From Bdellovibrionia bacterium (GTDB taxonomy: Bacteria; Bdellovibrionota; Bdellovibrionia; Bdellovibrionales; JAGQZY01), in the NCBI GenBank assembly GCA_030424715.1, contig JAUHWH010000001.1, positions 620,001 to 684,000 on the forward strand: a stretch of 64,000 bases of DNA, given 5' to 3'. The position numbers and the translations under genes were made by a program. The notes under the pieces were generated by a model. That model did no database searches. It saw only the letters and a list, made by a program, of their open reading frames with translations, and was not told the origin of the DNA. This document shows, piece by piece, positions 18,321 through 45,975 of the stretch; the stretch's first letter is position 1; the number at the start of each line of letters is the position of its first letter.

Positions 18321-19325
18321 ATGTCCAAGGCATTCAAGAAAATTGAAATCGAACTTTCTAGTCGCTGCAACGCCGCCTGCCCGGGCTGTTTGCGAACCAT
18401 TCTCATAAACCAGAGCCAACCTTTTGAAGAAACCAATCTCTGCCCGACTGTGCTTTTTAATAGCCTCGAAGGGGTCGATCTTTCTGACACAGAAATAAAA
18501 CTATGCGGAGTGTTGGGAGATCCAATGGCTCATCCTGATCTGTTGACTATATGTGAACGTTTCGTTGCTTTGGGGGGCTCCGTTGAGATTTCGACAAACG
18601 GAAGCCTTGGGCGTGACTCGGATTGGCAGGCTCTCGGGAAGATGAGCCAGAAAAGCAAAAAACTGCGAGTGCACTTTTCTGTGGATGGTCTTGAAGAGAC
18701 CAATAGTGTTTATCGCAAGAACACTCGGTTCGATAAAATTGAAACTAATATATGGACTTACACCCAGTTCGGAGGAAAAGGTGTCTGGGTCTTCATTGAT
18801 TTTGATCACAACACTCATCAGAAAAATGAGGTGAGAGATCGGGCCAAAGCTGTCGGTCTAGAATTTGCTGTTCGCCGCGCCATTCGAAATAGCTTTCCGA
18901 AACTGAAACACGGCAAGAACGAGAGCGTTAAAGTCGACAGGTCCGCTCGGGCCCATGATGCCCTCGCAAAGTTCCGTAGGCAGGCTAAAGAAGATGCATC
19001 AAAATTAGATGGTCAAAGTATTCTTTGCAAATATAAGCACGGAAACGAACTCTTCATTAGTGCCGAGGGAGGGTTATGGCCTTGTTGTTTTCTGTGGGAT
19101 GAGTTTCGATCTAAGCGGTCGACATTTTTTGAGAGTGTCTCGAGCCGCTGTGGTCACTCTGGTTGGAACAGCTTAAAAAATCAAAGATTGTCAGAAGTTT
19201 TAGATCACCCTTTTTTCACCGAGATACAAGATCTGTGGGACAATCAAAGTAATCAATTCACGCGACGCTGTTTTAAATCCTGTGGATCTCGCGGAGACTT
19301 TCAGAACACTTTAGGGAGGGAATAG
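18321..19325 (+). CDS. Radical SAM protein with C-terminal twitch/SPASM-like cysteines (type 1)
   Basis: This encodes 334 residues from ATG 18321 (AAGG eight bases upstream); an in-frame GTG lies 9 bp earlier. The radical-SAM cluster motif CNAACPGC gives Cys16, Cys20 and Cys23, which would bind a [4Fe-4S] cluster and generate the 5'-deoxyadenosyl radical. The usual GGEP is replaced by LGDP. HFSVDGLEETNSVYR is shared with the other type 1 proteins. The C-terminus carries LCKYKHGNELFISAEGGLWP then CC, and CFKSCG, resembling an auxiliary-cluster module. It is the first gene of the island's plus-strand run. The substrate is unknown. Confidence 0.85.
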   Translation: MSKAFKKIEIELSSRCNAACPGCLRTILINQSQPFEETNLCPTVLFNSLEGVDLSDTEIKLCGVLGDPMAHPDLLTICERFVALGGSVEISTNGSLGRDSDWQALGKMSQKSKKLRVHFSVDGLEETNSVYRKNTRFDKIETNIWTYTQFGGKGVWVFIDFDHNTHQKNEVRDRAKAVGLEFAVRRAIRNSFPKLKHGKNESVKVDRSARAHDALAKFRRQAKEDASKLDGQSILCKYKHGNELFISAEGGLWPCCFLWDEFRSKRSTFFESVSSRCGHSGWNSLKNQRLSEVLDHPFFTEIQDLWDNQSNQFTRRCFKSCGSRGDFQNTLGRE

Positions 19326-19327
19326 GT

Positions 19328-20512
19328 TTGAACGAAGCCGTTAACATCATTGATCTGGATTATAGCGACTCTTTGGCAGTCACGTGGGATATCGGTCGTA
19401 GATGTAACCTCGATTGCACATACTGCCCCTCGTACCGACACGACAATGTAAGTCCTTCTGCATCTCTCGATTCGCTCAAAGAAACGGCCCACTTTGTATT
19501 TAGGTATTTAGAGACAATGATGCCTTTTCGCTCTAATAAAGCGGCCACGATAGATTTTACTGGTGGAGAGCCTACCGCAAACCCCGAGTTTGTTGAATTT
19601 AGCTCCTGGCTTAGAAAGGAGCATAAAGAAAAATATCAGGAGCAATTTAGCCTCGAAGTTTGCTTAACCTCTAATGGAATCATTAGTGACCGGATGCGTG
19701 AAAGCTTGGTTGAAAATTACGAGTTCGCCACCTTTTCCTATCATTGCGAAGCTACCGAATCACAAAAAATCCGTTTTTTTAACAATATTGAAATTCTCAA
19801 GTCGACTTCTTTTAATATGAAGATCAATGTCATGTTTCACGCCCGTGATGACTATTTTGAAGAATGTCTGAGCGTCTGTGAAAGACTCCGCGCCCTCGGA
19901 GTGGATTTTGTCCCGAGACTGATCGGAGACAAGGACAATAAAGATCGATATAATCACCAATACAGCTCTCGACAAATAAACTGGATGAAAGAGTATTGGA
20001 AGAACCCCGAGGCCGTATTGTTTCAGTTGCTGGAACCCCGCGTCAGCACTGCCGATAAACCGGACTGTGAGAAGAAGCAATGCTCGGCGAGTAGTTTAGG
20101 GCGTCCTTGTTGTGGTAGTCGAAACATGAAGGTCTGCGGAGGTAGCAGCCAATGGCGAAACACCAAGTTCCTTGAGTCGACCGATTTTAAGGACTGGTAT
20201 TGCTCGGTGAATTGGTTCTTTCTTCATATCGAGCAACAAACGGGTCAGGTGTTTCATCATCAAACCTGCCAAGCCACCTTTGACTATGGCAGAGGGCCGA
20301 TAGGCCTTCTTTCAGATACGGGTACTATTTTAACAAATCTAAAAGAGCGAATTGCTACGAAATCAATGCCGATCATTCGGTGTTCTCGTCGACAGTGTGG
20401 CTGTGGCTTATGTGCTCCAAAGGCGCAAGACCTTGGGAGCCTTCTTAAAATTTTTCCCAAACACGTTGATGCGGACATTTTCCAGAATCGACAGCCCATA
20501 GAAAAGACTTGA
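19328..20512 (+). CDS. Radical SAM protein with cysteine-rich C-terminus (type 3)
   Basis: This encodes 394 residues from TTG 19328; AGGGAGG sits eight bases upstream and the preceding stop is 2 bp away. CNLDCTYC (Cys26, Cys30, Cys33) and FTGGEPTANPEF are canonical radical-SAM motifs. The C-terminal half is very cysteine-rich, including a pair separated by 21 residues (WYC to QTC), then RQCGCGLC near the end. The same C-x21-C spacing occurs in the protein at 23508. This suggests at least one auxiliary cluster. It is probably cotranscribed with the upstream type 1 gene. The reaction is unknown. Confidence 0.85.
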   Translation: MNEAVNIIDLDYSDSLAVTWDIGRRCNLDCTYCPSYRHDNVSPSASLDSLKETAHFVFRYLETMMPFRSNKAATIDFTGGEPTANPEFVEFSSWLRKEHKEKYQEQFSLEVCLTSNGIISDRMRESLVENYEFATFSYHCEATESQKIRFFNNIEILKSTSFNMKINVMFHARDDYFEECLSVCERLRALGVDFVPRLIGDKDNKDRYNHQYSSRQINWMKEYWKNPEAVLFQLLEPRVSTADKPDCEKKQCSASSLGRPCCGSRNMKVCGGSSQWRNTKFLESTDFKDWYCSVNWFFLHIEQQTGQVFHHQTCQATFDYGRGPIGLLSDTGTILTNLKERIATKSMPIIRCSRRQCGCGLCAPKAQDLGSLLKIFPKHVDADIFQNRQPIEKT

Positions 20513-20524
20513 GGCTTAATCTTT

Positions 20525-21499: not shown

Positions 21500-21506
21500 G
21501 GGACTA

Positions 21507-21569: not shown

Positions 21570-22042
21570 TTGGACAGAAGCACGAAGCTCTTTTTCGAAC
21601 GAGTGCCCTCATTGTTGTAGATCCTTACTGGAAATTAGAACAGGAAGATTTCGAACGATTCCCATCCCACGAGCGAGAGTGCCAGGAATTCGTTTCGAAA
21701 AAAATCGAACCTTCTCTGAGGTACTTTCGTCAGGGTATCGTAACGACCTGGGGAGACCGTGATATTCATCCGGGGCTTCAACATCTTCGCCGTGTCTATA
21801 CAGCGTCGGAGTTGCAAGAACTCGTTTCTGTTTCCGAGCCGCTCTTTTTCTCAGGATTTCATTATGGGCGCTGTGTATTAAAAATGCCAGCAGGCCTCCG
21901 AGCGATGCAGTCCCTTGGTTATTCGTGCACCCTTCTTGAGGATCTGACGATGCTCTTTCCAGCAGACCAGCTACAGATTATGAGAAGCAACACGAGAAAG
22001 AGTGGTGTGGAGATCTTGTCATGTGAAGATGTTCAGTGCTAG
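21563..22042 (+). CDS. Isochorismatase-like cysteine hydrolase (short, divergent)
   Basis: This 159-residue protein has VVDPYWKLE near the N-terminus and LFFSGFHYGRCVLKMPAGLR followed by MQSLGYSCTLLEDLT. The second segment aligns by eye with the isochorismatase-family core (G-x-x-x-x-x-C-V-x-x-T-A... G-Y... D-A), placing the catalytic cysteine in GRC. The Asp in VVDP would be the triad aspartate. The expected cis-peptide region is not obvious, so activity is uncertain. It starts at GTG 21563 and overlaps the next gene's in-frame upstream region by a few bases. Confidence 0.45.
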   Translation: MLVGQKHEALFRTSALIVVDPYWKLEQEDFERFPSHERECQEFVSKKIEPSLRYFRQGIVTTWGDRDIHPGLQHLRRVYTASELQELVSVSEPLFFSGFHYGRCVLKMPAGLRAMQSLGYSCTLLEDLTMLFPADQLQIMRSNTRKSGVEILSCEDVQC

Positions 22043-22050
22043 GTATAGGC

Positions 22051-23358
22051 ATGTCAGAAACGAAGAATACGACATTCTGTCCGATTCCTTGGATTTTTCA
22101 AGCGGCACGTAATAACGGAGATATTCGGATATGTTGCCAAGCGAATGTTTCCCCGAATCGCGGGATCGTCCGAGACGAAGCTGGCCGAGCTTACAATGCG
22201 AGGCATGGGCGTTTGAGTGAGGCTCGCAACGCTCAGCTAATGAAAGAAGTCCGAAGAAACATGATGAATGGTTGCTGGTCGCAAGAATGTGTGCGGTGTC
22301 AACAGGAGGAAGCCTCTGGGCTAAACAGTCGACGCTCTTATGAACAAGAGCAGTGGCCATTACATCTTGAAGATGTCGTGCCGTTGACCAAATTCGATGG
22401 CTCTATTGCAGACGAGGACTTTCCGATTCAGTATTATGATCTTCGTTTTGGAAATCGTTGCAACTTGGCCTGCAGAATGTGTGGTCCCAGCGACTCTGAT
22501 AGTTGGTATGCAGATCACGTAGCGCTAACTGGAGAGAACCACTATCGAGACAGTCACGGTTCGGTCGTCCTTGAGCAAAAGGGCGAGCGTTGGTTGGATA
22601 GAAATAAAAGCTACGCTTGGTATAAGAGTGAAAAATTTTGGACAAGCCTGAGTAAACACGAAAACGGGTTAAAACATATATATATGGCGGGTGGAGAGCC
22701 CCTTTTGATCAAAGAGCATTATAAGTTTTTAGAACGATGCATCGAATCAGGGATGAGCTCAAGAATTTTACTTGAGTACAACACCAACTTAACATTGCTG
22801 CCCGACAACTTATTGTCCTTGTGGAAACAATTTCGAGAAGTGCGGATCGGTGCAAGTATCGATGGTTACGGAGAGACGTTTGAGTTTCAGAGATATCCTG
22901 GCCGTTGGGCTTCCGTTTACGAGAATCTTAAAAAGTTAGATAGGCAAGAAAAGCCTATCCACTCTTGGTTGGCATACACGGTCACGGTCTACAATGTTAT
23001 GCACCTCCCTGAGTTCATCCGTTGGAAAGTGGAGGACAGCGGCTTCTCTAGAATCAATAGCAGCCGGCGTCGGCCGACAGTGACTCATCATGTGGCCCAC
23101 AAGCCTGAGCATTTAAATGTGAAAGTCTTGTCAGACCACCAAAAATCGATAGTTTCTGAAAATTTTAAAAAGTATCGTACATACTTTATAGAGAACTTCG
23201 AACCAGCGCACCGAGACAGTGGTCTATCGATTTTAGACAGTGTCGAGTCCTATATGAACAGCTCTAGCTACCATGAACAATTTGGACCGCAATTGAAGCA
23301 GTTTTCAATGAAGCTCGACGCACTTAGGGGCCAGGACAGTTCACAGTTTTTACCTTAG
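22051..23358 (+). CDS. Radical SAM protein with N-terminal twitch-like domain (type 2)
   Basis: This encodes 435 residues from ATG 22051. The N-terminal module has Cys10 in FCPIPW, a Cys28-Cys29 pair exactly 18 residues later, and Cys75/Cys80/Cys83. The radical-SAM core follows: LRFGNRCNLACRMC (Cys137, Cys141, Cys144), MAGGEPLLIKEHY and SIDGYG. This architecture matches what I recall as the N_twi_rSAM family. The auxiliary cluster would sit before rather than after the barrel. The closest relatives in the window are the genes at 25747 and 39968. The product is unknown. Confidence 0.88.
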   Translation: MSETKNTTFCPIPWIFQAARNNGDIRICCQANVSPNRGIVRDEAGRAYNARHGRLSEARNAQLMKEVRRNMMNGCWSQECVRCQQEEASGLNSRRSYEQEQWPLHLEDVVPLTKFDGSIADEDFPIQYYDLRFGNRCNLACRMCGPSDSDSWYADHVALTGENHYRDSHGSVVLEQKGERWLDRNKSYAWYKSEKFWTSLSKHENGLKHIYMAGGEPLLIKEHYKFLERCIESGMSSRILLEYNTNLTLLPDNLLSLWKQFREVRIGASIDGYGETFEFQRYPGRWASVYENLKKLDRQEKPIHSWLAYTVTVYNVMHLPEFIRWKVEDSGFSRINSSRRRPTVTHHVAHKPEHLNVKVLSDHQKSIVSENFKKYRTYFIENFEPAHRDSGLSILDSVESYMNSSSYHEQFGPQLKQFSMKLDALRGQDSSQFLP

Positions 23359-23427
23359 GAGCCCTCGGGTGTAACCGATAGACTAACAATGCCTTGTCGA
23401 CTGATCTGAAAGTTTATCAAGGGTACA

Positions 23428-23511: not shown

Positions 23512-24689
23512 GCATTTGGTCGGATTACGATTTTACAAAGATTCCACTCGATTCAATCGAGAGAGTTGGACAGCGGACATTATTGTATCGCGACTTGTTT
23601 TGTGTCAGTTGGCTTTTGGGACGCTTTTGTAATTATAAATGTTCTTACTGCTGGCCCTACGCGCGTTCCGATGTCAAAGATCACCGTTCAACGGAGCTAG
23701 TGTTAAAAACACTCGGTGAAATCAAGCGGCAAGCGCGAGAAAGAGGTTTTAATTCTTTTCACTTTTCCTTTAGCGGTGGCGAACCAACCCTCCATCCAGG
23801 ATACCTCGATATTTTGAAACATTATGCCAACGATGCTGAAAATTGCAATTTTCAGTCGGTTCACATGACTAGTAATGTGAGTTTAGGTCTGGGATGGCTC
23901 AAGCGGTATGTTGAAGCCACCAAAAATCTACACCGAGTTAGTATTACAGCAAGCTACCACAAGGAATTTGCGGTCAAAGAGCGTTTTGCCGATAAGCTGG
24001 TCTTCTTACAGGAAAACGACGTGCATGTAACAATCAACTCTGTAATGGTTCCTGAAAGGTTCGAGGCGATTTGGGACGACATGCTGTATTTTCACGAAAG
24101 AGGTATAAACGTCACCCTCAAGCCTCAGAGCAACCCAACCGCGACGAAAATTGTAGATGGCTACACCGAGGATATGTTGAAAAAATTAAAAAATGGAATG
24201 CCCCAACGAAACTACACCATGGCACGTATGAAAGGCGTGGGTAAACAGAGTTCACGCCCGAGCCCAGGGTTTGGAAAGCTTCCGCGAGATCCGGATGTCA
24301 ACGAGCCGATTCCGCCCCATTTTCAGGTCGAATTGAATGATGAGAATGGTAAAGCTTGGTATTTGGATCAAGCCGAGCGATTCAACGCTTTTGAGTTTAA
24401 TAATTTTAAGGGCTGGGAGTGTAGCTCGGGTTATCGGAGTATTATTATCCGAGAGCCTGATGGGTCGGTAAAGAGAAGCTATAGCTGTAGCGACGCCCCT
24501 TTGGGCACTATCGAAGCCGGCTTTGACCTGTTTAAAAGCCCCAGGGCCTGCCAAACTGAAAGCTGTGTGAGTAGCGCTGATAGTAAAATTCCTAAAAGAA
24601 AACCGGGGGCGCCCCTGCCGCTGTGGCCTGGCGACAAAACTTTCGAGAACCGATGTACAGATTCAATGAAGTCAAGACGATCCATTTAG
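23508..24689 (+). CDS. Radical SAM protein (type 3) with C-terminal SPASM-like cysteines
   Basis: This 393-residue protein has CNYKCSYC at Cys41, Cys45 and Cys48 and FSGGEPTLHPGY. An in-frame stop 12 bp upstream fixes the start near ATG 23508. The C-terminal half has WEC and SYSC separated by 21 residues, the same spacing as in the protein at 19328, then CQTESC. It is more distant from the type 1 and type 2 proteins. It sits between a type 2 and a type 1 gene and its 3' end overlaps the latter's start. The substrate is unknown. Confidence 0.85.
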   Translation: MSIWSDYDFTKIPLDSIERVGQRTLLYRDLFCVSWLLGRFCNYKCSYCWPYARSDVKDHRSTELVLKTLGEIKRQARERGFNSFHFSFSGGEPTLHPGYLDILKHYANDAENCNFQSVHMTSNVSLGLGWLKRYVEATKNLHRVSITASYHKEFAVKERFADKLVFLQENDVHVTINSVMVPERFEAIWDDMLYFHERGINVTLKPQSNPTATKIVDGYTEDMLKKLKNGMPQRNYTMARMKGVGKQSSRPSPGFGKLPRDPDVNEPIPPHFQVELNDENGKAWYLDQAERFNAFEFNNFKGWECSSGYRSIIIREPDGSVKRSYSCSDAPLGTIEAGFDLFKSPRACQTESCVSSADSKIPKRKPGAPLPLWPGDKTFENRCTDSMKSRRSI

Positions 24690-25750
24690 AAATTACATCG
24701 AAGTGTAATGCTCGTTGCCCGATGTGCTTGAGAACCGTTTGTGGGGGTCAGAACAATCCAAACCTGCCCCTCGTCGAATTGGGTATGGTCGAAATCAAGA
24801 AAATATTTCCAATACCTTTTATAAAGCAATTAGACCGTATGTACATGTGCGGTAATTACGGCGACCCTATAGTGGCGCAAGACACGTTAAAAGTGTTTCG
24901 TTACTTCAGAGATGTCAATCCTGAGATACGACTAGATATGTTTACCAACGGTTCTGCTAAGAATGAGGCTTGGTGGCAAGAGCTTGCTGGGGTTATTGAC
25001 CTGGTTCACTTTAGTGTTGATGGACTTGCCGATACAAACCATATCTATCGCAAAGGTACCCACTTCCCTACAATCATGAAAAATATTGAGGCTTACCGAG
25101 GAGCCGGTGGTGAAGCGGTGTGGGACTACATCGTTTTTAGACACAACGAGCATCAAATTCACGAGGCCGAGCAACTTGCGGTGGAGTTGGGCTTTAAGAG
25201 TTTTAATATCAAGAAGACGGGGCGTTTTTTTAGTAATTCAAGGATGGAATCGAAGGGCAAGCAAGAAGTTTACAACAGGGAAGGAGATCTCGACTACTAC
25301 ATCGAGATGCCTCTGAGTAAAAAGTACCATAATTCCGCAGTCGCGAAAGAACAGGCATTGATAGACAAATATGGAAGTCTAGAAAGTTATCTAGATAAAA
25401 CGCCGATTAATTGTAAGGTGGCTAAAGAGAAGAGCCTCTACATCACTGCAACCGGCGATGCCTTTCCATGTTGTTGGACCGCGAATCAGCTTTACCCTTG
25501 GTATTTCCCAAACCAGAAATCTTACATGTGGAAGCTCCTAGAAAAACTAGAGAATGGTCCTTCGGATATGAGTGCTCTTCAGCATGGTTTAGAGAAAGTA
25601 GTGAATGGTGAGTTTTTTCAAGACGTTCTTTTAAAGAGCTGGAAAGCGAAAAGTATTAAAAAAGGCCGGCCGAAGTGTTGCGCCAAAACCTGCGGATCTG
25701 AGTTTGACCCGTTCCGGGCACAGTTTAGCGAATCTTCGCCCCCCGCTTAA
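24653..25750 (+). CDS. Radical SAM protein with C-terminal twitch-like module (type 1)
   Basis: This encodes 365 residues from ATG 24653, giving a 37-bp overlap with the previous gene; an earlier in-frame start at 24623 is less likely because other type 1 proteins begin close to the barrel. CNARCPMC lies at Cys18/22/25. GDP replaces GGEP (CGNYGDP). HFSVDGLADTNHIYRKGTHF and VFRHNEHQIHEAE are shared with the proteins at 18321, 37352 and 41431. The C-terminal INCKVAKEKSLYI...FPCCW and CCAKTCG would hold the auxiliary cluster. Its stop overlaps the convergent neighbour by 4 bp. Confidence 0.88.
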   Translation: MYRFNEVKTIHLEITSKCNARCPMCLRTVCGGQNNPNLPLVELGMVEIKKIFPIPFIKQLDRMYMCGNYGDPIVAQDTLKVFRYFRDVNPEIRLDMFTNGSAKNEAWWQELAGVIDLVHFSVDGLADTNHIYRKGTHFPTIMKNIEAYRGAGGEAVWDYIVFRHNEHQIHEAEQLAVELGFKSFNIKKTGRFFSNSRMESKGKQEVYNREGDLDYYIEMPLSKKYHNSAVAKEQALIDKYGSLESYLDKTPINCKVAKEKSLYITATGDAFPCCWTANQLYPWYFPNQKSYMWKLLEKLENGPSDMSALQHGLEKVVNGEFFQDVLLKSWKAKSIKKGRPKCCAKTCGSEFDPFRAQFSESSPPA

Positions 25751-27209: not shown

Positions 27210-27920
27210 ATGCACAGCGATTCAGGCCAGGGGGAGGGACCCCTCGATATTATCTTTATTTCTTATTCAGAGTCCAATGCTGACAAGAATTGGCTAGAGC
27301 TGAAGCGCCGCTTTCCAAGAGCTAAGCGTGTGCATGGAGTTAAAGGAATTCGAGAAGCCCATATGAGAGCTGCTGAAAAGGCGGAAACAACATTCTTTTT
27401 TGTCGTCGATGGAGACAATCGTATTAACAAAGACTTTCGTTTTGAGAGACCGGCAGTTGGTTTAAGAGAAGAAGCTCTGTATGTCTATCGATGCTACAAT
27501 CCGGTGAACGACCTGGTCTATGGCTATGGAGCCATAAAAATTTATAATAAAAGCTTGCTGCAGCCGGGACAGGATAAGCAATATACTGATTTCGCCACTC
27601 GCATAACGCAAGATTATGTGATTATTGATGAAGTGGCTTCATCCACCCATTTCTTTCACACTTCAGAAGAAGCGTGGAGAGGGGCCTTTCGCGAAGCCTA
27701 TAAACTGAGTTCTCAGTGTATCGACCGTCAAAATACTCAGCAAACACTCGACCGGTTGGTCCAGTGGTGCGAATCATCCAATGAGGTGACGAATGCCGCG
27801 TGGGTTTTGTTGGGGGCACGACAAGGACGCGACCTGGCGTCGCAAACCTCATCCCGAGATCTTGATATAAATAACTTTGATCAGCTACAGGTTTTTTTCA
27901 ATGAGCATGCACAAGCTTAG
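27210..27920 (+). CDS. Putative GT-A glycosyltransferase-like protein
   Basis: This 236-residue protein has DIIFISYSESNADKNWLELK, then RVHGVKGIREAHMRAAE, FFVVDGDNRI (a DxD-like metal and nucleotide-sugar motif) and RCYNPVNDLVYGYGAIKIYN. I recall this exact pattern from a family of glycosyltransferase-like proteins abundant in T4-like marine phages. The protein is soluble. It overlaps the next gene by 20 bp. The substrate is unknown and the annotation rests on motif recognition only. Confidence 0.55.
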   Translation: MHSDSGQGEGPLDIIFISYSESNADKNWLELKRRFPRAKRVHGVKGIREAHMRAAEKAETTFFFVVDGDNRINKDFRFERPAVGLREEALYVYRCYNPVNDLVYGYGAIKIYNKSLLQPGQDKQYTDFATRITQDYVIIDEVASSTHFFHTSEEAWRGAFREAYKLSSQCIDRQNTQQTLDRLVQWCESSNEVTNAAWVLLGARQGRDLASQTSSRDLDINNFDQLQVFFNEHAQA

Positions 27921-29118
27921 CCCGTATCAACGTGCCAGTTGTATTCTACTAGGCCTTGAAACAGTTCACCCCGAACATGATGTTATATCGAAAGTTCGTT
28001 TTACGATGGAAAGCTTGTCGGCGGAAACGATTCAACGGGATAAATGTGTTGAAGACTTTTTTAATCTCCTCAAGGTTACGAAAGACTACCCCATCACCCC
28101 CTTTTTAGAGAAGATGGTTTTTACAAAAACTGGCCCAGACCTTCTTCAGGCAACATTAAAGGTAATGGACTACCTGACTTACGATCCAAGTTTTAAAAAT
28201 TTACAGTTACTTTTGGGTCAGTTAGATTCAACGGTGATTGACGACGAAAAGTTTGAAAAATTACTGATTAATTTTTTAATGAAAAAGTCAGAAGACGAAG
28301 GCTTTGGCTTTTGTACCGAGCTGGTGAGTGTTCTTCTCGAGAAAAACCCTTTTATACAGATTAAGAAAATATTAGAATTTTGCCACGATCTCTATCAAGA
28401 CGACCAACTACGGCTTTTAAAGAAGTCCTACGAACATTTTGTGACCATTGGCAGTGAAGCGCCGTTTTTTGCTTTTTTGTATCAGCATCTTACGCTCCGG
28501 ATTTTTAACGATATCAAGGTTGTTCTATTGGGCGAGCAGAAGAATCTCCTCGTGGATGCTTTTTCGAAAGGGCAAGTGAAGAGCAAGTTGTGGTTAGTCT
28601 CGGAACTTTCAAAGTTAAATAACTCTGGTCTAAAAAATGCTTTAGTTTTGTGTGGTTGGGTGGGGCTGTTGCCACATCTTTTGTTTAAGGCTGGTTTTCA
28701 GGAGATCATAAGTGTTGATTTTGATGAATCCTGTCAATCAATTGCCTTGAGGCTAAACAAACTAGAGACCGATATGGGGCGCTTTAACGCGGTGACTGAA
28801 GATATATTCAATTTAAACTACAAGCAGCTGCGGCTTCTCCAGTCCCAACACGACTCAGCACAAATAATGGATTGTGTAGACCTGTTAATCAATACCTCTT
28901 GCGAGCATATCGAAGCTTTTGATGAATGGTATGCAAAAATCCCCGAGGGGCAGTTGGTAGTGTTACAAAGCAACGACTTCTTTGATTGTGATCAGCATGT
29001 CAACTGTGTGAATTCTCTTGCAGATTTCAGAGAGCAAACGCCCATGGGAGAGCGTTTGTTCTCGGGCGCCCTACCTCTTGAGAACTACACCCGCTTCATG
29101 GTAATTGGTTATAAGTAG
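27901..29118 (+). CDS. Protein with C-terminal SAM-methyltransferase-like domain
   Basis: This encodes 405 residues from ATG 27901; an in-frame upstream start at 27877 is less likely. Residues 1-210 are helical with no recognised family. The C-terminal part has a Rossmann-like pattern, VLCGWVGLLPHLLFKAGFQEIISVDFD, and LLINTSCEHIEAFDEWYAKI followed by LVVLQSNDFF. The latter matches a class I methyltransferase-like group that I recall from marine phages. The canonical GxGxG is relaxed to GWVGLLP, so catalytic activity is uncertain. It is coupled to the glycosyltransferase-like gene. Confidence 0.5.
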   Translation: MSMHKLSPYQRASCILLGLETVHPEHDVISKVRFTMESLSAETIQRDKCVEDFFNLLKVTKDYPITPFLEKMVFTKTGPDLLQATLKVMDYLTYDPSFKNLQLLLGQLDSTVIDDEKFEKLLINFLMKKSEDEGFGFCTELVSVLLEKNPFIQIKKILEFCHDLYQDDQLRLLKKSYEHFVTIGSEAPFFAFLYQHLTLRIFNDIKVVLLGEQKNLLVDAFSKGQVKSKLWLVSELSKLNNSGLKNALVLCGWVGLLPHLLFKAGFQEIISVDFDESCQSIALRLNKLETDMGRFNAVTEDIFNLNYKQLRLLQSQHDSAQIMDCVDLLINTSCEHIEAFDEWYAKIPEGQLVVLQSNDFFDCDQHVNCVNSLADFREQTPMGERLFSGALPLENYTRFMVIGYK

Positions 29119-35814: not shown

Positions 35815-35922
35815 AGTGATCACTCCTGTGGAACAATAGAAATATAACCGAGAGTTCGTAGATTTGCGAGAAATAATGGTAGGTGCAAAATTGAGATACT
35901 CAGAACACAGCGATAGGTTCGT

Positions 35923-36420
35923 GTGGCACGCCCAAACCTGAACGACCCATTGCCGTCTCTTAATAAGCGCGTGTTATTAGTCTTTTTTACGTTGTTTTTA
36001 GGCGCCCAACTATTTGAGATTCTAACACAGCGTGAGGACTATCCCCTGACCCGGTGGGGAATGTATCGTCGACACCCGGATTTTAAAAATTTCATTAACC
36101 TTGTAGTCAAAATCGACAACGTCAGACCGGCCCACGGCCTCTTTAAGAACCCGTGGAAGTTTCGTCGGGAATTATGGGACATTGTTTGCTTGGGGAACAC
36201 TCGTAAAGATCGGCCCGACAAGCTTGATCTGTATCTCAAGATTGCTGAAGAGTGCGCTGCTTCCCGCCGCTCGGAGATCGAGATCCTCCTGAAGCGATCT
36301 CTAAAAGATCCCCAAATTCCCCAAAAGTTTTCAATCTATTTTCTCGCATGGGAAACTCTTTCGAAAACTAATATTAATCAACCTGAAATCCTAGCGACAC
36401 TCTATGAAAAAGATTTTTGA
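35923..36420 (+). CDS. Membrane-anchored partner of HTTM protein (module 2)
   Basis: This 165-residue protein starts at GTG 35923. One N-terminal hydrophobic segment (VLLVFFTLFLGAQLFEIL) is followed by YPLTRWGMYRRHPDF, placed where the module 1 and 3 partners have PYYHWEIGFGE. The rest is a soluble domain with many charged residues. It overlaps the downstream HTTM gene by 17 bp. The sequence is diverged from the other two partners, but size, topology, order and coupling are the same. Confidence 0.55.
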   Translation: MARPNLNDPLPSLNKRVLLVFFTLFLGAQLFEILTQREDYPLTRWGMYRRHPDFKNFINLVVKIDNVRPAHGLFKNPWKFRRELWDIVCLGNTRKDRPDKLDLYLKIAEECAASRRSEIEILLKRSLKDPQIPQKFSIYFLAWETLSKTNINQPEILATLYEKDF

Positions 36421-37285
36421 TCAGGTTGACCAGTTTTTTTTCAAAAAAGCGTCGGCTTACCACCTTTCCTGTATTCGCATTATAACGGCCCTTTTTTTGT
36501 TAGTTTTTTGCGAAAGGTACTTTGACGGTCTCGAGATCGCCTACTCTGCTGGTAATTACGATGCTGTTGGACTGTTTAAAATTCTTCCAACACTTATCGA
36601 TCTTGAATTTCTGAGAAGCATTCAGGTCGTCTGGCTAGTCTCTTTACTTTTTCTTTTGTTTGGCTTTCTTACGCGTTTTTCAACGATATTGGTTTTTTTG
36701 ACATCGCTATTCGTACTAGGGTATCGAAACAATTTTGGAAAGATTGATCACGACTCCCATCTACTGCTCTATATGCTCTTTGTTTTTTGTTTCAGCCGAT
36801 GGGGAGATGTCTTTTCAATCGACTCTCTTTTCAGGCCCAAAAAGCCAGTCTCCGAGAGTTGGAGGTATCGGTGGCCTGTGGCTCTGATCAATATCACTAC
36901 TGTATTGACTATGTTTACCCTTGGTGTTCAAAAGTTGTATTTCGAGGGCCTTGAATGGGTTTTTTCGGACAAATTTTATCTTCTCATTTATAAAAATCCA
37001 GGCATGACGGTTTTTGGAAAATTTATCCTGAATCAAGACCTCTGGGTTTCCGTTGCGCTTGCTTTCTATAGCGTTTTTGTTGTCGAATGTCTTTCACCAC
37101 TCGCTCTGAGTAAGAAATTTTCAAAAGTCTTTCCCGTTTTATGGTCAAGCTTGCATGTGGGGGTATGGCTAATTCTTGGGGGGCACCTAAACTTTTTCTC
37201 ACAAGTGGTTGTCTATCTCAATTTCTATGACCTGTCGTTTTTCCCTAAAGTCATCGCAAAGCGCCTTGGGGCCCATAAAACCTGA
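36404..37285 (+). CDS. HTTM domain membrane protein (module 2)
   Basis: This 293-residue polytopic protein has about seven hydrophobic segments. SAYHLSCIRIITALFLL and the VLGYRNNFGKIDHDSHLLLYMLFVF region fit the HTTM family, the membrane domain related to vitamin-K-dependent gamma-carboxylases. KLYFEGLEWVFSDKF is a further family-like segment. The large extracytoplasmic domain of the eukaryotic enzyme is absent. ATG 36404 lies inside the partner gene, indicating translational coupling. The reaction, if any, is unknown. Confidence 0.65.
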   Translation: MKKIFDQVDQFFFKKASAYHLSCIRIITALFLLVFCERYFDGLEIAYSAGNYDAVGLFKILPTLIDLEFLRSIQVVWLVSLLFLLFGFLTRFSTILVFLTSLFVLGYRNNFGKIDHDSHLLLYMLFVFCFSRWGDVFSIDSLFRPKKPVSESWRYRWPVALINITTVLTMFTLGVQKLYFEGLEWVFSDKFYLLIYKNPGMTVFGKFILNQDLWVSVALAFYSVFVVECLSPLALSKKFSKVFPVLWSSLHVGVWLILGGHLNFFSQVVVYLNFYDLSFFPKVIAKRLGAHKT

Positions 37286-37351: not shown

Positions 37352-38506
37352 CTAGACGGACTTTTTTCCATTGCTTGGAGACTTATTAGTTTCACCTTGC
37401 AGAGCAGGCCGATCTTGAGTTTGAGATATAATTGGGTTCGAAACAGTACTGCAAGTTCTTAGACAACGGTAGAGTTTTTCATCTGAGTTGTGCCAACTTT
37501 GCTCAAGGTCCGATGCAAAAAACGGGTGCTGGAGAAGATCTTCCCAGTTTTGAGTTCTTAAAGAATTAAAGTCTTTTTTGTACCGGTTTTCTATCCATTG
37601 TATCGTATTTTTTGCGATAGGACTGAGTGGTAGATACATGTCGCTGCTTAAAAAACAACAAGGGTGCACCTCCGCTCGGGCGTTCACGTATATTCTTTGA
37701 AACTGAGTTCTATTGAGACATCTAATTTCAGTAGCTTTGATATCACTGGTTGCATTGCCCTGGTAAAGTGGTTTTTCAACTTTATTTTTTATTTGATTTT
37801 GAAACTGCTTCGATTCGGGAGGTTCCAAATAGTACTCTAAGTTGCCTTCTCTATCCCAGACCGGGTATTTGTTGGGGCCGGCCGGGCTGCGACTAAAACG
37901 CGAGGTTTTTCGTATTCTAAAATGTTTGAAGCCCACTTTTTTGGCTAACTTTTCGGCGTCTTCTATCTGATGTTCGTTGTGTTTGAAAACTAGAAAATCC
38001 CATCGAGCGTGTCCCCCAGTAGAGATAAAGGCCTCAGCATTTTCCAAAATCTTTTCGAAATTAGTTCGTCTTCTATAAATCGAGTTGGTGTCCGAGAGGC
38101 CGTCGATACTAAAAACGCCCAAGTCGGTTTTCCTGTAGTATTGGTGTTGAGACTTATCACCAAGGAGTTTCCCCAACTCAGCCCACCAAGATTTGGATCG
38201 AGCGCTTCCGTTAGAGTAGAACTCAATCGTGGCGTTTGTCTGTTTTTTGGCGATCTCCACGAAGGGTAATGCATTGGGATGGGCGGCTGGGTCCCCGTGT
38301 GTTCCACAAAAAAGAATATTTTTAAGATTCAGAAACTGTGGATCAAAAACTTTCTCGGCGTCTTCGCTCGTCCAATCACTCATTGCTAAACCTTCGGCGT
38401 CTTTCCCACCAAACTGGTTTCGGGAACACATCGGGCAGGCGGCATTGCAACGGTTGGTTACTTCTACATGTAGTTCTTCTAAGGTTGTAAAGTTTTGATA
38501 AGCCAC
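37352..38506 (-). CDS. Radical SAM protein with C-terminal twitch-like module (type 1)
   Basis: This 384-residue protein has CNAACPMC (Cys20/24/27), CGTHGDPAAHPN with GDP in the GGEP position, FSIDGLSDTNSIYRRRTNF and FKHNEHQIEDAE. The C-terminus holds IRCLNRTQFQRIYVNARAEVHP then CC, and CLRTC. The first Cys to CC distance is 20 residues, one more than in its type 1 relatives. Its ATG overlaps the stop of the SDR gene by one base, so the two minus-strand genes are coupled. Confidence 0.87.
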   Translation of the reverse strand: MAYQNFTTLEELHVEVTNRCNAACPMCSRNQFGGKDAEGLAMSDWTSEDAEKVFDPQFLNLKNILFCGTHGDPAAHPNALPFVEIAKKQTNATIEFYSNGSARSKSWWAELGKLLGDKSQHQYYRKTDLGVFSIDGLSDTNSIYRRRTNFEKILENAEAFISTGGHARWDFLVFKHNEHQIEDAEKLAKKVGFKHFRIRKTSRFSRSPAGPNKYPVWDREGNLEYYLEPPESKQFQNQIKNKVEKPLYQGNATSDIKATEIRCLNRTQFQRIYVNARAEVHPCCFLSSDMYLPLSPIAKNTIQWIENRYKKDFNSLRTQNWEDLLQHPFFASDLEQSWHNSDEKLYRCLRTCSTVSNPIISQTQDRPALQGETNKSPSNGKKSV

Positions 38507-39964: not shown

Positions 39965-39967
39965 AAT

Positions 39968-41416
39968 TTAAATTTCCCTCATAAGTTCAGCGGTTTCGGG
40001 GCATAGCTCTTCAAAGCTTGTTCCATGAATTTGGTCAAGTCGCCGAGTGTACTTCCAAAACTTTTCGTTTAAGTGGGAGCTGTCTTTGGCAAACATCACA
40101 TTGGTGTAATTGTCTAAGATCGTATCGAAACGCTTTATTACCTGCTCCGTCAGAGTTTCGTTTTGCTCGGAGAATAGGTTCCATTCGAAGGCGTGCTCTC
40201 GAAATTCTTTTTTTTGTTTTTCAAATCGAGCTCTAATTAAATCTTTGCTGCGTCTAGGGAAAGTTTGAATGGAAAGCTGTTTGGGGTTGGACAGTGGGTG
40301 TGGAGACATGATCTCTCGACCAAGTTTTGATTGGTTCACCCGTTCAAATTTTTGCTGAACGATCCACTTCATCATTTCTGGTAAGTGAAGAAGATTATAA
40401 ATCTGAATCGTGGCTGCCCACCAAATGCGATAATTCCCCGGGGCTGAGTCTAAGTTTTTAATGTTTTCCGCGATCTGCGGCCAACGACTTCCCGAGCGAA
40501 TGTAATCGTTGAAAGCACCGATCCCGTCGATACTCATACCAATATCAATTCTTCTGAAATGACTCCAGATTTCTAAAATTTTTGGTGTTATTACTGTGAT
40601 GTTGGTATTGTATTCCAGGATTAAGTTTTTCGAATACCCCTTTTCAATACAGTGCCGAAGCAGATCAAACTGTTTTTCTATAAGCAGGGGCTCTCCTCCA
40701 GCGAGATAGATTCTTTGCAGTTTGGGCAAATACTTTTCCAATTCTTTCCAAAAACGGGGAGACTCATGCCAAGTGTAAGGGTCGCCTTCTACATAGAACT
40801 GACCATTATTGTCTTTATGGACCTCAAGTTTTCGATCGCCCTCTTTAAAGGTGGAGTGACCATAAACTTTTTTTTGTAAGCTGTACCAACGGTCACTTTC
40901 GGTGGAGCCGCACATCCGACATTTTAGGTTACAACGGTTGCCAAATCTCAGGTCAAGGTAGCGGACGGGGAACATCTCTTCGTCAATGGTGCCGTCACTA
41001 GATGTGTGTTTGTTAAAGAGGTCAAAATTTTGCTCGGGCCAAAGAAACTGTTCAGCATGCCGACGACTGTAGATTCCCGCATCCTCTTCTCTGTAGCAGC
41101 GCTGGCAGCCCGGGTGTCTTTTCCCCTTGAGCATGGCTTGCCTTACGTCTTTTAACAATTGGGAGTTTTTACCTGCGGCGATCGAGTCGTTCTCCAAGCT
41201 CAGCGGCTCTCCCTTGTCGTTGGTTAAAATACCCCGCCCTGGAGACTGGTGGGCATGGCAGCAGTAACGAAGATCGCCGACACTTCTTACGCTCATTCCA
41301 ACCCATGGCTGAGGACACCACGTGTCATTGATCCTGGAAGCCTGTGGTGCGCCGTCGGAAGTTTCAGCGGGAGAATCCTTAGTTTCTTTAATGTGTTTAA
41401 AAGCACTTTTAAGCAT
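39968..41416 (-). CDS. Radical SAM protein with N-terminal twitch-like domain (type 2)
   Basis: This encodes 482 residues from ATG 41414-41416. A longer reading to 41689 would run through the divergent gene and adds no family sequence. Cys34 in WCPQPW, Cys52-Cys53 18 residues on, and Cys104-x2-Cys107 make up the N-terminal module. The barrel has RFGNRCNLKCRMC (Cys162/166/169), LAGGEPLLIEKQF and SIDGIGAFNDYIRSGSRW. It is closest to the protein at 22051. The start codon is only 14 bp from that of the divergent type 1 gene. Confidence 0.87.
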   Translation of the reverse strand: MLKSAFKHIKETKDSPAETSDGAPQASRINDTWCPQPWVGMSVRSVGDLRYCCHAHQSPGRGILTNDKGEPLSLENDSIAAGKNSQLLKDVRQAMLKGKRHPGCQRCYREEDAGIYSRRHAEQFLWPEQNFDLFNKHTSSDGTIDEEMFPVRYLDLRFGNRCNLKCRMCGSTESDRWYSLQKKVYGHSTFKEGDRKLEVHKDNNGQFYVEGDPYTWHESPRFWKELEKYLPKLQRIYLAGGEPLLIEKQFDLLRHCIEKGYSKNLILEYNTNITVITPKILEIWSHFRRIDIGMSIDGIGAFNDYIRSGSRWPQIAENIKNLDSAPGNYRIWWAATIQIYNLLHLPEMMKWIVQQKFERVNQSKLGREIMSPHPLSNPKQLSIQTFPRRSKDLIRARFEKQKKEFREHAFEWNLFSEQNETLTEQVIKRFDTILDNYTNVMFAKDSSHLNEKFWKYTRRLDQIHGTSFEELCPETAELMREI

Positions 41417-41430
41417 GATAGATTTTCCGA

Positions 41431-42495
41431 GTGTATATACCCTTGGAAGAAATACAAGAGATTCAACTCGACCATACAAGTCGATGCAACCTAGAGTGCC
41501 CCCAGTGCGCGCGAACGACGAAGGGGTGGGCCAGTCTTCCCCAGAATAAAAATCTAGATTTGAGCTTAGATGATTATAAAATTCTACTAGAGCCTTTCCC
41601 AAGGAATAAATTAAAGGTTTTTCACTGTGGAAACTTTGGAGATGCATTAGCAAGCCCAACTTTCGATGAAACCCTTTCCTACACTGCATCTCAGGAGCCG
41701 AGAGCTATTGTGATTGCAACGAACGGTTCTATACGATCGTGCAGCTGGTGGGCCGACTTAGCGTCAAATCACAAAGACAGGCTTAAGGTGATCTTTTCGA
41801 TTGATGGTCTTGATAAAACAAACTCAGAGTATCGTGTTGGGTCGTCTTTTAAAAAGATAATGGCAAATGCAAAAGCTTTTTTAGATAACGGCGGCAAAGC
41901 TCGTTGGGATTTCATCGAGTTTAAACATAATTTTCATCAGATCGAGGAGGCGAAGAAGCGAGCTTCTGACATGGGGTTTCAAGAGTTCAATGTTAAGTAC
42001 ACAGCCCGTTTTGCTGTCGAGAATAAGACGAGACAGAGCTCGAAAAACAATGGGGTCTTAGAGGATCGAAAGACAAATCATAATCAAAAAGACTTCGCTG
42101 CAGTTCAGAGCCAGTACGGATCATTTGATCAGTATGTCAATGAAACCACGATCGACTGTAAATACAAGCGTGGACGTAAAGTCTTTGTCGATATGAACAT
42201 GCGCCTGTGGCCCTGCTGTTGGTTTGGAGCCCCCCTTTACCTTGGAGAGCACACAAAACAGAATCAAAGCTTTCAGCATCTAGTGAAGATGTACGGTACG
42301 GAGTTCAATTCCTTGCGAACTCACGGCTGGGGGGCTTTAGAGCATGAGTTTTTCCAGTCCTACTTAGAAAATTCGTGGGAAAAGCCAGATGATAAATTTC
42401 AGAGAATATACACCTGTGGGAGAACCTGTGGTGGGAAGTTCGAATTTAGCAGCGGGTATGGTCGAAATCAAAATGTGACAACTGCGAGACTATGA
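41431..42495 (+). CDS. Radical SAM protein with C-terminal twitch-like module (type 1)
   Basis: This encodes 354 residues from GTG 41431 with a weak ribosome site. The motif CNLECPQC lies at Cys19/23/26. The GDP variant reads GDA here (HCGNFGDALASP). FSIDGLDKTNSEYRVGSSF and EFKHNFHQIEEAKK match the type 1 set. The C-terminal DCKYKRGRKVFVDMNMRLWP leads into CC after 19 residues, and CGRTCGG follows. It begins a plus-strand run with the B12-type and type 2 radical SAM genes. Confidence 0.87.
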   Translation: MYIPLEEIQEIQLDHTSRCNLECPQCARTTKGWASLPQNKNLDLSLDDYKILLEPFPRNKLKVFHCGNFGDALASPTFDETLSYTASQEPRAIVIATNGSIRSCSWWADLASNHKDRLKVIFSIDGLDKTNSEYRVGSSFKKIMANAKAFLDNGGKARWDFIEFKHNFHQIEEAKKRASDMGFQEFNVKYTARFAVENKTRQSSKNNGVLEDRKTNHNQKDFAAVQSQYGSFDQYVNETTIDCKYKRGRKVFVDMNMRLWPCCWFGAPLYLGEHTKQNQSFQHLVKMYGTEFNSLRTHGWGALEHEFFQSYLENSWEKPDDKFQRIYTCGRTCGGKFEFSSGYGRNQNVTTARL

Positions 42496-42503
42496 GGTGA
42501 TTT

Positions 42504-44021
42504 ATGACAAGCGCTGACATTGTTTTTGTGACCCTACCAAGGTTAGAGCTGCGAAGCCCAATTACGGCGCCGGCCCTTCTAAAAGCCCAGGTGGAAAGTA
42601 AGGGTTTTTCGGCGCGCTGTCTCGATTTTAACTTGGAGCTCTGGCACGCCCTTGATTCTGAGAAGTTTGGCGATCTTTGGTTTGATACAGACCTCACTTT
42701 CCGCCACAAAGAAAGATTTGAAGTGTTTTGGAATGAAGAGCTTCGAAGAGAAGCTGATAAATGGGTAGGTAAGATATTGGCGATTAATCCTCGGTGGGTT
42801 GGGATTACAATATTCAGTCAGCGCAGCAAGTGGATTACAATCAAATTTTGCCAACTACTTAAAGCCCAGATTCCCGCGATTAAAATTGTCACGGGTGGTG
42901 CCTATTCTGAACGGGTGAGTCCTAGTCTTTACGACAAAGGGTATGTTGACGCTTACGTAGTGGGCGAGGGGGAGAATCCAATTGTTGAGGTCCTGCGAGG
43001 CAACTTTGACGCACCCGGGATTAACGGCAGGGCCGCCGAACAAATAGAAGATTTAGACACCTTGCCCATCCCCGACTATAGCGATTTCGAGCTAAATCGG
43101 TACCCACAGACATGGAGTTCGCCGAAGATTAAAGATGAGTCAAGAATGGGAACAAACTTTATATATATTACGGGCTCTCGTGGCTGTGTTCGCAAGTGTG
43201 ATTTTTGTGATGTGCAGAGCCTCTGGCCAAAATTCCGCTACAGATCGGGTGAGCACATCGCGCAAGAGATGATGGAGCAAAACAGTCGGTTCGGTAGCAA
43301 GCGCTTTCTCTTTACCGACTCTTTGATCAACGGGTCGGTTCGGCAACTGAAAGATCTATCCTCGACACTTATTAAGTATAGAGAGTCGGGAAAGATGGGG
43401 CCGGTCAAGTGGCAGGGTCAGTTTATAGCTCGTCCCGAGAGACACATGAAAGATGACGTTTATAAACTTATGAAAGAAGCTGGCTGTTTTTTTGTAAGTA
43501 TCGGTGTGGAAAGTGGTTCAGAGTCTGTCCGCAACGACATGAGAAAAATGTTTGACGACGAGGCCTTAGAATTCACATTCAAAACTTGTGCAAAGTATAA
43601 CATTCAGATGGCATGGCTGTTGCTTGTTGGTTACCCGACGGAGACAGAAAAAGATTTTAGAGAAACGCTAAAACTTCTGGAGACCTACAATTGGATCAAT
43701 CAGAAAGGCTTGGTTCGGAGTGTGGCCTTGGGGCCGACCCTCGATATTGTCCCAGGATCACCGCTCTATCATAGACAAAAAGAAATGGGCATTCAGTGGG
43801 ATGATGCTGGTAATTGGGTGTGCGGCAATAACACCCGTCCAGTGAGAATTCGGCGATGGCTAAGGTTGAAAGAGAAATGTCTTGAGCTAGGTTACCCCAT
43901 TGTGGAGAAAGCCACAGATCACCTACATATGGAGCTTGCGGAGTACGAGAAAAATTCTCGCCTCACGACGCCCGCCTGGGACCAATTTAACGAGAACCCC
44001 GGTGATATGGGGCGAGTGTAG
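42504..44021 (+). CDS. B12-binding-type radical SAM protein
   Basis: This 505-residue protein has an N-terminal Rossmann-like region (IVFVTLPRLELRSPITAPALL, VTGGAYSERV, DAYVVGEGENPIVEVL) typical of cobalamin-binding radical SAM proteins. I do not see the DxHxxG motif that ligates cobalamin, which is often lost in this class. The radical-SAM motif GSRGCVRKCDFC gives Cys228/232/235, and FVSIGVESGSESVRNDMRK follows. Known relatives include methyltransferases and cyclases. ATG 42504 has AGGTG upstream. Its stop shares a base with the next gene's GTG. Confidence 0.85.
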   Translation: MTSADIVFVTLPRLELRSPITAPALLKAQVESKGFSARCLDFNLELWHALDSEKFGDLWFDTDLTFRHKERFEVFWNEELRREADKWVGKILAINPRWVGITIFSQRSKWITIKFCQLLKAQIPAIKIVTGGAYSERVSPSLYDKGYVDAYVVGEGENPIVEVLRGNFDAPGINGRAAEQIEDLDTLPIPDYSDFELNRYPQTWSSPKIKDESRMGTNFIYITGSRGCVRKCDFCDVQSLWPKFRYRSGEHIAQEMMEQNSRFGSKRFLFTDSLINGSVRQLKDLSSTLIKYRESGKMGPVKWQGQFIARPERHMKDDVYKLMKEAGCFFVSIGVESGSESVRNDMRKMFDDEALEFTFKTCAKYNIQMAWLLLVGYPTETEKDFRETLKLLETYNWINQKGLVRSVALGPTLDIVPGSPLYHRQKEMGIQWDDAGNWVCGNNTRPVRIRRWLRLKEKCLELGYPIVEKATDHLHMELAEYEKNSRLTTPAWDQFNENPGDMGRV

Positions 44022-45211: not shown

Positions 45212-45327
45212 AGTCTGCCGCGGGATTAGCCGACGTTTCTGAGTACTATCAAAGGATTGATAAGACAGTTGGTTTTTTCGGAGCTCAAGCCTTCTAGGGA
45301 GCTGCGGGAGACGCCGTGTTTGTGCGG

Positions 45328-45975
45328 CTAGGATTCAAGAAGGTGTTGTTGCACTAAATTCACGGACTCTGAAGACAGGTCTAGGTTGAGGACCAATACA
45401 AAATTTTTATTTTTGAAACTAAAAAGACTGTGCGCTTTTCGAGTGTTTACGTAATAAAGCCGTTCTGTTTCGAAAAACTTTTTTTGATTGTCTATGATAA
45501 AACCAAGGTCATCGGGAGTTCCATTGAAAAAGGCGATCAATCGGAAGCTATCTCCGAGATCACGGTGCGGTGGGAAAAACCCTCCTTCGTCGAGTCTCAG
45601 AACATGGCTACGGCCGAGATAAGGGGCATAAGGTTCTATGGGCTTCGTGATCGAAGGCAGTTCTGGCCAATACTTTGTTGGTATTTTGAAGGACATCTCA
45701 GTGTATTGGGTTCCGTTTCTTTGATTATACTCAAGTAGCGAATCAAGGTCGATGTGGCCATCAACCCCACCACTTAGCGACGTAAGGCTCAGGCCCGTAC
45801 GCCTGTGGGTGGGTTTTGAAGAATTATACATAACCCATTGATCTTGCATGGGGGTCAATTCAGCGAGGACGCTCTCTCGGTCGAACTGGATATTCAAAGG
45901 AACAAGATCGCCGAGAGACTGAAGTTGTAGGTCATTGATGATAGAGTTCATGATGGCTTTAAAAATACTTCCCAT
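45328..45975 (-). CDS. Aspartyl/asparaginyl beta-hydroxylase-like 2-oxoglutarate oxygenase
   Basis: This encodes about 215 residues from ATG 45973-45975. RRTGLSLTSLSGG, LRLDEGGFFPPHRDLGDSFRLIAFFNG and YYVNTRKAHSLFSF give an HxD...H iron triad and a 2-oxoglutarate-binding arginine, as in the Asp/Asn hydroxylase family. Similar proteins occur, from memory, in marine phages. It would hydroxylate a peptide side chain or a small molecule. It is at the right edge of the island on the minus strand, after about 115 bp of non-coding sequence. Confidence 0.65.
   Translation of the reverse strand: MGSIFKAIMNSIINDLQLQSLGDLVPLNIQFDRESVLAELTPMQDQWVMYNSSKPTHRRTGLSLTSLSGGVDGHIDLDSLLEYNQRNGTQYTEMSFKIPTKYWPELPSITKPIEPYAPYLGRSHVLRLDEGGFFPPHRDLGDSFRLIAFFNGTPDDLGFIIDNQKKFFETERLYYVNTRKAHSLFSFKNKNFVLVLNLDLSSESVNLVQQHLLES

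Follow-up and report, generated by a model that had tools for sequence, protein, structure and literature searches.

A radical-SAM gene island of a Bdellovibrionia bacterium and its counterparts in Bdellovibrionota and aquatic T4-type phages

Genes of the island

The stretch of DNA analysed here (the window) comprises 64,000 nucleotides from a Bdellovibrionia bacterium (assembly GCA_030424715.1, contig JAUHWH010000001.1, positions 620,001 to 684,000) and contains an island in which genes of radical S-adenosylmethionine (rSAM) enzymes alternate with genes of other enzyme classes. Genes are named below by their first coordinate in the window. Fourteen intact rSAM genes lie within 27.7 kb, all of them open, full-length frames carrying a CxxxCxxC motif. 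With 36 rSAM matches in the whole genome of 3.13 Mb, 0.32 would be expected in an interval of this length (P = 5e-20). An earlier note, made from the sequence alone, had claimed fourteen complete rSAM genes with this motif in four architectures, and both statements are supported by Pfam/NCBIfam matches or by homology. The exceptional density that it described holds within this genome, although other Bdellovibrionota islands are as full and the phage versions are denser.

The curated cut-off of PF04055 is passed by 11 of the 14 rSAM proteins. The protein of 34651 falls just under it but exceeds that of NF033640 (249 against 170 bits), while 18312 and 41431 score 23.5 and 23.6 against 29.5 bits and are homologous over their full length, at 30-34% identity, to 24623 and 37352, which both pass. 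Seven proteins (22036, 25747, 31301, 32468, 34651, 39968 and 44021) belong to NF033640 ('N_Twi_rSAM'), in which a SPASM/twitch part precedes the rSAM domain; their scores range from 249 to 432 bits, the curated cut-off being 170 bits, and 32468 and 44021 also contain PF13186 (SPASM). Four proteins (18312, 24623, 37352 and 41431) have a C-terminal SPASM-like part. Their best match is TIGR04317, the rSAM maturase of a tungsten cofactor oxidoreductase, a label that was rejected at 49-57 bits against a cut-off of 380. The remaining proteins are two short rSAMs (19328 and 23508) and a single one that combines a B12-binding-like domain with rSAM (42504). Three of the genes, 23508, 24623 and 25747, form the core trio discussed below. 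The island and its flanks contain the following genes (percentages are identities).

16580..17563 (-): HTTM-like membrane protein, paired with 17553, by sequence reading and with no Pfam match; homologues at 39% in the island of genome G133 and 38% in G243, aligned with conserved K and H
17553..18029 (-): small partner of HTTM-like 16580; same pair in G133_C34 and G243_C275
18312..19325 (+): rSAM, C-terminal SPASM-like (placed at 18321 in the earlier note); CNAACPGC; TIGR04317 E 2e-13, far under the cut-off; 39% to a G133 gene, 35% to phage L283
19328..20512 (+): short rSAM; PF04055 40 bits; 48% in G026 and 48% in phage L283
20525..21499 (+): possibly glycosyltransferase-like, TEKTWRPLL motif; weak phage homologues
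21563..22042 (+): small protein; 47% to the N-terminal part of a G133 protein in which the 20525 and 21563 domains are fused
22036..23358 (+): rSAM N_Twi, start near 22051; NF033640 351 bits; 52% in G090, 50-51% in many phage loci, 56% over the part kept in phage L142
23508..24689 (+): core trio short rSAM; PF04055 54 bits; 73% in G002, at most 68% in phages
24623..25750 (+): core trio rSAM, C-terminal SPASM-like, start near 24653; PF04055 34.5 bits; 60% in G002, 48% in phage L278
25747..27156 (-): core trio rSAM N_Twi; NF033640 432 bits; 62% in phages
27210..27920 (+): GT-A-fold glycosyltransferase-like; structure model and PDB fold matches
27877..29118 (+): methyltransferase-like, start near 27901; motifs only, invariant SxDxDxxC...NTSCEH...LQSN (family A10)
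29120..30325 (-): outer-membrane beta-barrel-like with TSP3 repeats (PF02412), probably incidental; no homologue in related islands
30446..31141 (+): SGNH-type hydrolase; GDSYS motif by reading; weak phage similarity
31301..32437 (+): rSAM N_Twi; NF033640 259 bits; 39% in G243
32468..33709 (-): rSAM N_Twi, PF13186 N-terminal; PF13186 59, PF04055 48.5, NF033640 254 bits
33818..34669 (+): short protein with a pyridoxal-phosphate (PLP)-fold-like reading (FSLSKG, invariant Lys; alignment A9); 42% in phage L312; weak profile match to aminotransferase 3if2 (E 0.018)
34651..35823 (-): rSAM N_Twi; NF033640 249 bits
35923..36420 (+): small partner of the second HTTM-like protein, pairing by reading; similar pair in G026
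36404..37285 (+): second HTTM-like membrane protein, by sequence reading; loose alignment A11
37352..38506 (-): rSAM, C-terminal SPASM-like; PF04055 31 bits; 55% in G053, 53% in phages L314/L329
38506..39093 (-): short-chain dehydrogenase-like; PF13561 24.8 bits (cut-off 27) and conserved motifs; 62% in G053, 47% in phage L313
39203..39964 (+): PP-loop, QueC-like ATP-using enzyme, Cys4 motif; PF06508 27.6 bits; SGGxDS and CxxC invariant; 42% in phages; weak PDB profile matches
39968..41689 (-): rSAM N_Twi, likely start near 41416, the frame overlapping 41431 solely via its first ~92 codons; NF033640 366 bits from residue 121; 52% in G243, 44% in phage L311
41431..42495 (+): rSAM, C-terminal SPASM-like; PF04055 sub-threshold; 61% in G243, 56% in phages
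42504..44021 (+): rSAM with B12-binding-like domain; PF04055 63.5 bits, PF02310 29.7 bits (cut-off 32.1); 72% in G243, 65% in phage L308
44021..45211 (+): rSAM N_Twi; NF033640 312 bits; 63% in G243, 58% in phage L300
45328..45990 (-): 2-oxoglutarate oxygenase-like (HxD...H); invariant H142, D144 and H187; 40% in phages; profile match to beta-hydroxylase 7v4o (E 0.0015)
58634..60044 (-): outlying HTTM-like pair (58634-59596, 59571-60044); 46% to G133_C34 19693-20682, within the G133 island

Among the partner classes named in the earlier note, the glycosyltransferase is supported by a confident model with a GT-A fold. The PP-loop, short-chain dehydrogenase and 2-oxoglutarate oxygenase assignments combine weak profile matches with motifs, those of the PLP-like and SGNH proteins are mostly motifs, and that of the methyltransferase is by motif. 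The model of 27210 (predicted local distance difference test, pLDDT, 91) has glycosyltransferases as its best PDB matches, SunS and ThuS among them, and the family shares a conserved DGD[N/A] segment; when profiles of the 27210 and 27877 families were run against the PDB, nothing matched. The model of 25747 (pLDDT 89) is nearest, at a distance, to SPASM maturases and viperin. For both proteins, the fold matches are at 10-16% identity. In 44 sequences Cys 16, 34, 97 and 100 (auxiliary cluster) and Cys 153, 157 and 160 (rSAM) of 25747 are invariant, so that the enzyme is expected, from its sequence, to be active. The cysteines of the other N_Twi members were also catalogued.

The rSAM paralogues of the island share at best 24-36% identity with one another, whereas counterparts elsewhere reach 76% for 25747, 73% for 23508, 72% for 42504, 63% for 44021, 61% for 41431 and 60% for 24623. 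The island rSAMs are therefore old, distinct enzymes and not recent duplicates, although for 31301, 32468 and 34651 the counterparts are distant (30-39%). The G+C content of the island (42-47%) is near that of its flanks. Capsid, portal and terminase genes are absent from the Pfam matches of the island genes, and the reading as an integrated prophage was discarded, as the island has no structural genes. Three HTTM-like proteins with small partners occur in the window (16580-18029, 35923-37285 and 58634-60044), and the G133 island has two related pairs.

Recurrence in Bdellovibrionota and in phages

The core trio is found together in 13 loci besides the window, which belong to four families and more than one order (G002, G004, G026, G044, G053, G089, G090, G091, G243, G246, G249, G250 and G304), and two of its three genes occur together in four further loci. 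In the trio loci, identities to the window are 59-73% for 23508, 42-60% for 24623 and 58-76% for 25747. Orthologues of 25747 at 59-75% are present in 18 other Bdellovibrionota genomes according to whole-genome search, with 76% in one by blastp, and, of 60 relatives, 20 have NF033640 genes above the cut-off. Of the compared sequence sets, 12, the window included, contain the 27210 glycosyltransferase family, and nine the 27877 methyltransferase family. Genome G133 has counterparts of most island genes, HTTM-like pairs and the PP-loop and 2-oxoglutarate oxygenase genes among them, while a second block (37352, 38506, 39968, 41431, 42504 and 44021) recurs partly in G053 and G243. A scan of genome contigs with a single protein gave no match; with a two-sequence profile it gave six named Bdellovibrionales/Oligoflexia loci. 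Neither of the two conditions that the earlier note gave for its refutation holds: the rSAM identity of the proteins is borne out, and further genomes contain the set as well.

Two small genomes of 1.6-2.0 Mb, G246 and G249 (L110 and L111), keep the trio and the glycosyltransferase together with few other cassette genes. The genome of the window itself contains two more loci. The smaller rSAM locus L039 (C15:120001-140000, ~10384-15631) has an N_Twi pair beside GT2 proteins with an extra N-terminal domain; its counterpart in G001, of the same genus, is 51-64% identical, and G015 has the locus as well. The third (L040:7141-11595) has two N_Twi genes at 48-49% identity to a tandem pair in G011.

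A profile search of IMG/VR yielded more than 580 relatives of the 27210 family. Of 80 retained viral loci, 26 also have 23508-, 24623-, N_Twi- and methyltransferase-like genes, and the 27877 methyltransferase family is present in 46. Further IMG/VR scans used profiles of 42504, 22036 and 44021. All scans together gave 202 viral loci, 126 of which contain at least five rSAM genes within at most 17.5 kb. Within 15 kb, phage locus L308 matches ten of the island's genes at 40-68% identity, and L314 has 12 rSAM genes in 17 kb. By manual count, ~17 rSAM genes occupy ~43 kb of contig G391, adjoining a block of large open reading frames (ORFs) that resembles a tail region, and ~20 occupy 40 kb of the 180-kb contig G395, in which Gp23 was not found. 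The Gp23 capsid gene is present in 13 of 23 tested contigs and the terminase in six; both are carried by the large contigs G391 (330 kb), G399 (383 kb), G397 (232 kb) and G398 (233 kb). Among the first 21 phage contigs, most of them fragments, two were positive for Gp23/Portal_T4. Beyond the contigs with hallmark genes, viral status is as given by IMG/VR. Tail-fibre-like genes lie near the phage cassettes, PHROG naming few of the flank genes; the flanks also have nucleotide-sugar genes, and some contigs encode thymidylate synthase and GTP cyclohydrolase. Isolate phages contain neither the core trio nor the glycosyltransferase; their matches are 25747 homologues at 22-26% identity in three Vibrio phages and one marine single-virus record. 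Taken together, the island is almost certainly the bacterial form of an enzyme cassette shared by phages and Bdellovibrionota.

In the tree of 25747, three phage sequences fall within the Bdellovibrionota clade, with support of 99/96 for their grouping with G115, and another group of phages lies outside it; in that of 42504 four phage sequences are nested with the window and G243 (96/92). Phages are thus nested among bacteria for 42504 and for part of 25747. Phage and bacterial copies are likewise mixed in the trees of 44021, 41431 and 23508, and the topology of these three gives no direction of transfer. A contig of the bacterial genome G115 (C21; L112:14388-17891, pheT upstream) carries phage-flank genes of 308, 119, 293 and 288 aa, relatives of which adjoin the glycosyltransferase gene in 21-35 phage loci; this stretch may be a phage-derived piece or part of a chimeric contig. 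Since the trees mix the copies and the G115 contig carries phage-flank genes, more than one transfer of the cassette between phages and Bdellovibrionota is probable.

The chromosomal site of the island is variable: in the same-genus G001, the upstream genes to serS and the downstream LysR and dioxygenase genes are conserved, but ~15 kb of unrelated genes lie between them. The tRNA-Ser(tga) after serS has an integrase next to it in G003. A relative of 42504 in G001 (L064; G001:C106:14715-16091) has an in-frame TAA and is perhaps a decaying copy. A separate integrated element of ~8.8 kb, also in the window (48704-57564), has a low G+C content of 37-41% and encodes a tyrosine integrase (48754-49863), an IrrE-type peptidase and a Beta_protein. 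It is bounded on both sides by a 25-bp repeat of the 3' end of tRNA-Ser(gct) (48704-48728 and 57540-57564, 24/25 identical).

Possible products of the cassette

The reading that we favour, with about even confidence, is that the cassette builds or decorates a surface glycan, such as lipopolysaccharide, capsule or a glycosylated surface structure. It is preferred because sugar enzymes lie nearby and no conserved precursor peptide was found. Further points for it are the glycosyltransferase of the core, the nucleotide-sugar genes in phage flanks, the position of phage cassettes by tail genes and two published cases treated below, the pelagimyophage cassettes and the Brachyspira plasmid. GT2 proteins (12/57) and an acyltransferase-3/SGNH protein are among the neighbours of the trio, and G133 encodes a UDP-glucose/GDP-mannose dehydrogenase with a counterpart (51% identity) in phage cassette L126. 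Between genera, no conserved short ORF (22-140 aa) was found near the trio, in a search that a distant precursor would escape. GT2 proteins with an extra domain bearing CxxxCxxC also occur (L054:4136-5641 and L103:4981-7929). The latter, of 982 aa, has two GT2 domains flanking the CxxxCxxC segment; the motif is kept in L054 and lost in L102, L106 and L039, which suggests from sequence that an rSAM-like domain decayed after fusion to GT2.

In such a pathway, the GT-A enzyme 27210 and neighbouring GT2 enzymes would lay down sugars, and the key radical step would fall to the trio, which might, for instance, dehydrogenate, epimerise or deoxygenate the sugar or glycan, or form a C-C or C-S bond. 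The further rSAMs, the B12-rSAM (C-methylation), the methyltransferase, the 2-oxoglutarate oxygenase and the short-chain dehydrogenase, PLP-like and PP-loop proteins could add optional decorations, so that each genome or phage would have its own variant. We infer the glycan substrate, its place on the surface and each single reaction, the reactions from enzyme class. Tentatively, the cassette may be a modular system of radical chemistry with a three-enzyme core and up to ~20 rSAM genes per locus, passed between a predator-containing phylum and jumbo T4-type phages, whose product would be a new class of surface glycan or glycoconjugate used by both in recognition (phage adsorption and superinfection exclusion; predator-prey and anti-phage interactions). 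The earlier proposal of a multi-step biosynthetic or surface-modification system is partly supported: it fits all these findings and points in the right direction, but had missed the phage link and the core of trio and glycosyltransferase.

Several observations weigh against surface-glycan tailoring. Among solved structures, those nearest to 25747 belong to maturases of peptides or proteins (sactisynthases, SkfB, SuiB and anSME), as is generally so for SPASM enzymes, and the rSAM identity of the GT2 fusion domain is read from its motif. Among the genes of the window's island, Pfam recognises no dedicated O-antigen flippase or polymerase (Wzx/Wzy), ABC export or sugar-nucleotide synthesis pathway. 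The function of the cassette as a whole is read from genes and models.

SPASM/twitch rSAMs act mostly on peptides. The main rival is therefore that the substrate of these enzymes is a ribosomal peptide, or else a protein of the surface or the virion such as a tail fibre, possibly with peptide glycosylation in addition. This is possible, though rather unlikely: the sactisynthase and anSME folds nearest to 25747, the peptide S-glycosyltransferases SunS and ThuS among the matches of 27210, and the tail-region genes adjoining phage cassettes would all suit it, but the fold matches are distant, the trio neighbours are sugar enzymes, no short ORF is conserved across the trio loci, and no protease, leader-binding domain or exporter was recognised. 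A sugar-tailored small molecule (a secondary metabolite), either exported or acting between predator and prey, is a less probable product still. The mix of rSAM, B12-rSAM, short-chain dehydrogenase, PLP-like, PP-loop and 2-oxoglutarate enzymes would be in keeping with such biosynthesis, but no carrier protein, synthetase, synthase or exporter was recognised, and a place beside phage tail genes suits a surface role better. Quite improbable is a phage anti-restriction pathway for DNA or nucleoside hypermodification, captured by the bacterium; phage sharing, the QueC-like PP-loop enzyme and the thymidylate synthase and GTP cyclohydrolase of some phage contigs are compatible with it, but the cassette lies among tail-region genes, and GT-A, GT2 and nucleotide-sugar dehydrogenase indicate glycans. 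Finally, a fortuitous cluster of unrelated rSAM genes, or one formed by recent tandem duplication, for which the lack of counterparts of 29120, 30446 and 35923 in related islands might speak, can practically be dismissed given the density, the divergence of the paralogues relative to their counterparts and the recurrence of the neighbourhoods, this explanation being refuted by recurrence in G133, G243, G053, G026 and phages.

Relation to known systems

Mobile cassettes for surface modification are of a known kind, and there is a real chance that the chemistry here is new. In the literature searched on phage or genomic-island rSAM genes, one direct precedent was found; it appears that neither the conserved core nor the occurrence of such cassettes in both phages and Bdellovibrionota has been described there. 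In pelagimyophages, according to the excerpted account, rSAM cassettes lie in a hypervariable host-recognition region with tail fibres, glycosyltransferases and O-chain genes (PMC7029224). As far as descriptions can be compared, the present cassettes are alike in belonging to T4-like aquatic phages with rSAM genes near tail genes; the same excerpt mentions the rSAM genes without a conserved core, a bacterial counterpart or a link to Bdellovibrionota (PMC7029224). A 36-kb plasmid of Brachyspira hyodysenteriae carries rSAM genes beside glycosyltransferases, sugar epimerases and rhamnose genes, thought to act in lipooligosaccharide biosynthesis or glycosylation; compared by description, it has dTDP-rhamnose genes, which the island of the window lacks (PMC4267127).

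Clusters for ribosomally synthesised and post-translationally modified peptides (sactipeptides and ranthipeptides) have the SPASM/twitch rSAM fold in common with the island. Unlike these, the island has no precursor that was found, its N_Twi enzymes have the SPASM-like part at the N-terminus, and it contains many more rSAMs per locus. O-antigen and other surface-polysaccharide clusters are alike in their glycosyltransferases, in a nucleotide-sugar dehydrogenase and an acyltransferase in or near related loci, and in their variable site; in contrast, the island of the window consists mostly of rSAM genes, with no flippase or polymerase recognised.

Aquatic T4-like and jumbo phages and Bdellovibrionota thus both have very dense rSAM loci, which are exchanged between them. 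Should these loci make glycans, surface sugars would undergo radical chemistry far more often in nature than is known, with a bearing on how phages recognise or alter their hosts. NF033640 is itself a family with no assigned function. Here, seven divergent members exceed its cut-off beside other rSAM types (four with a C-terminal SPASM-like part, two short and one B12-like) and a glycosyltransferase, and this tie to a three-enzyme core, a glycosyltransferase and a phage and predator context makes the role of the family testable.

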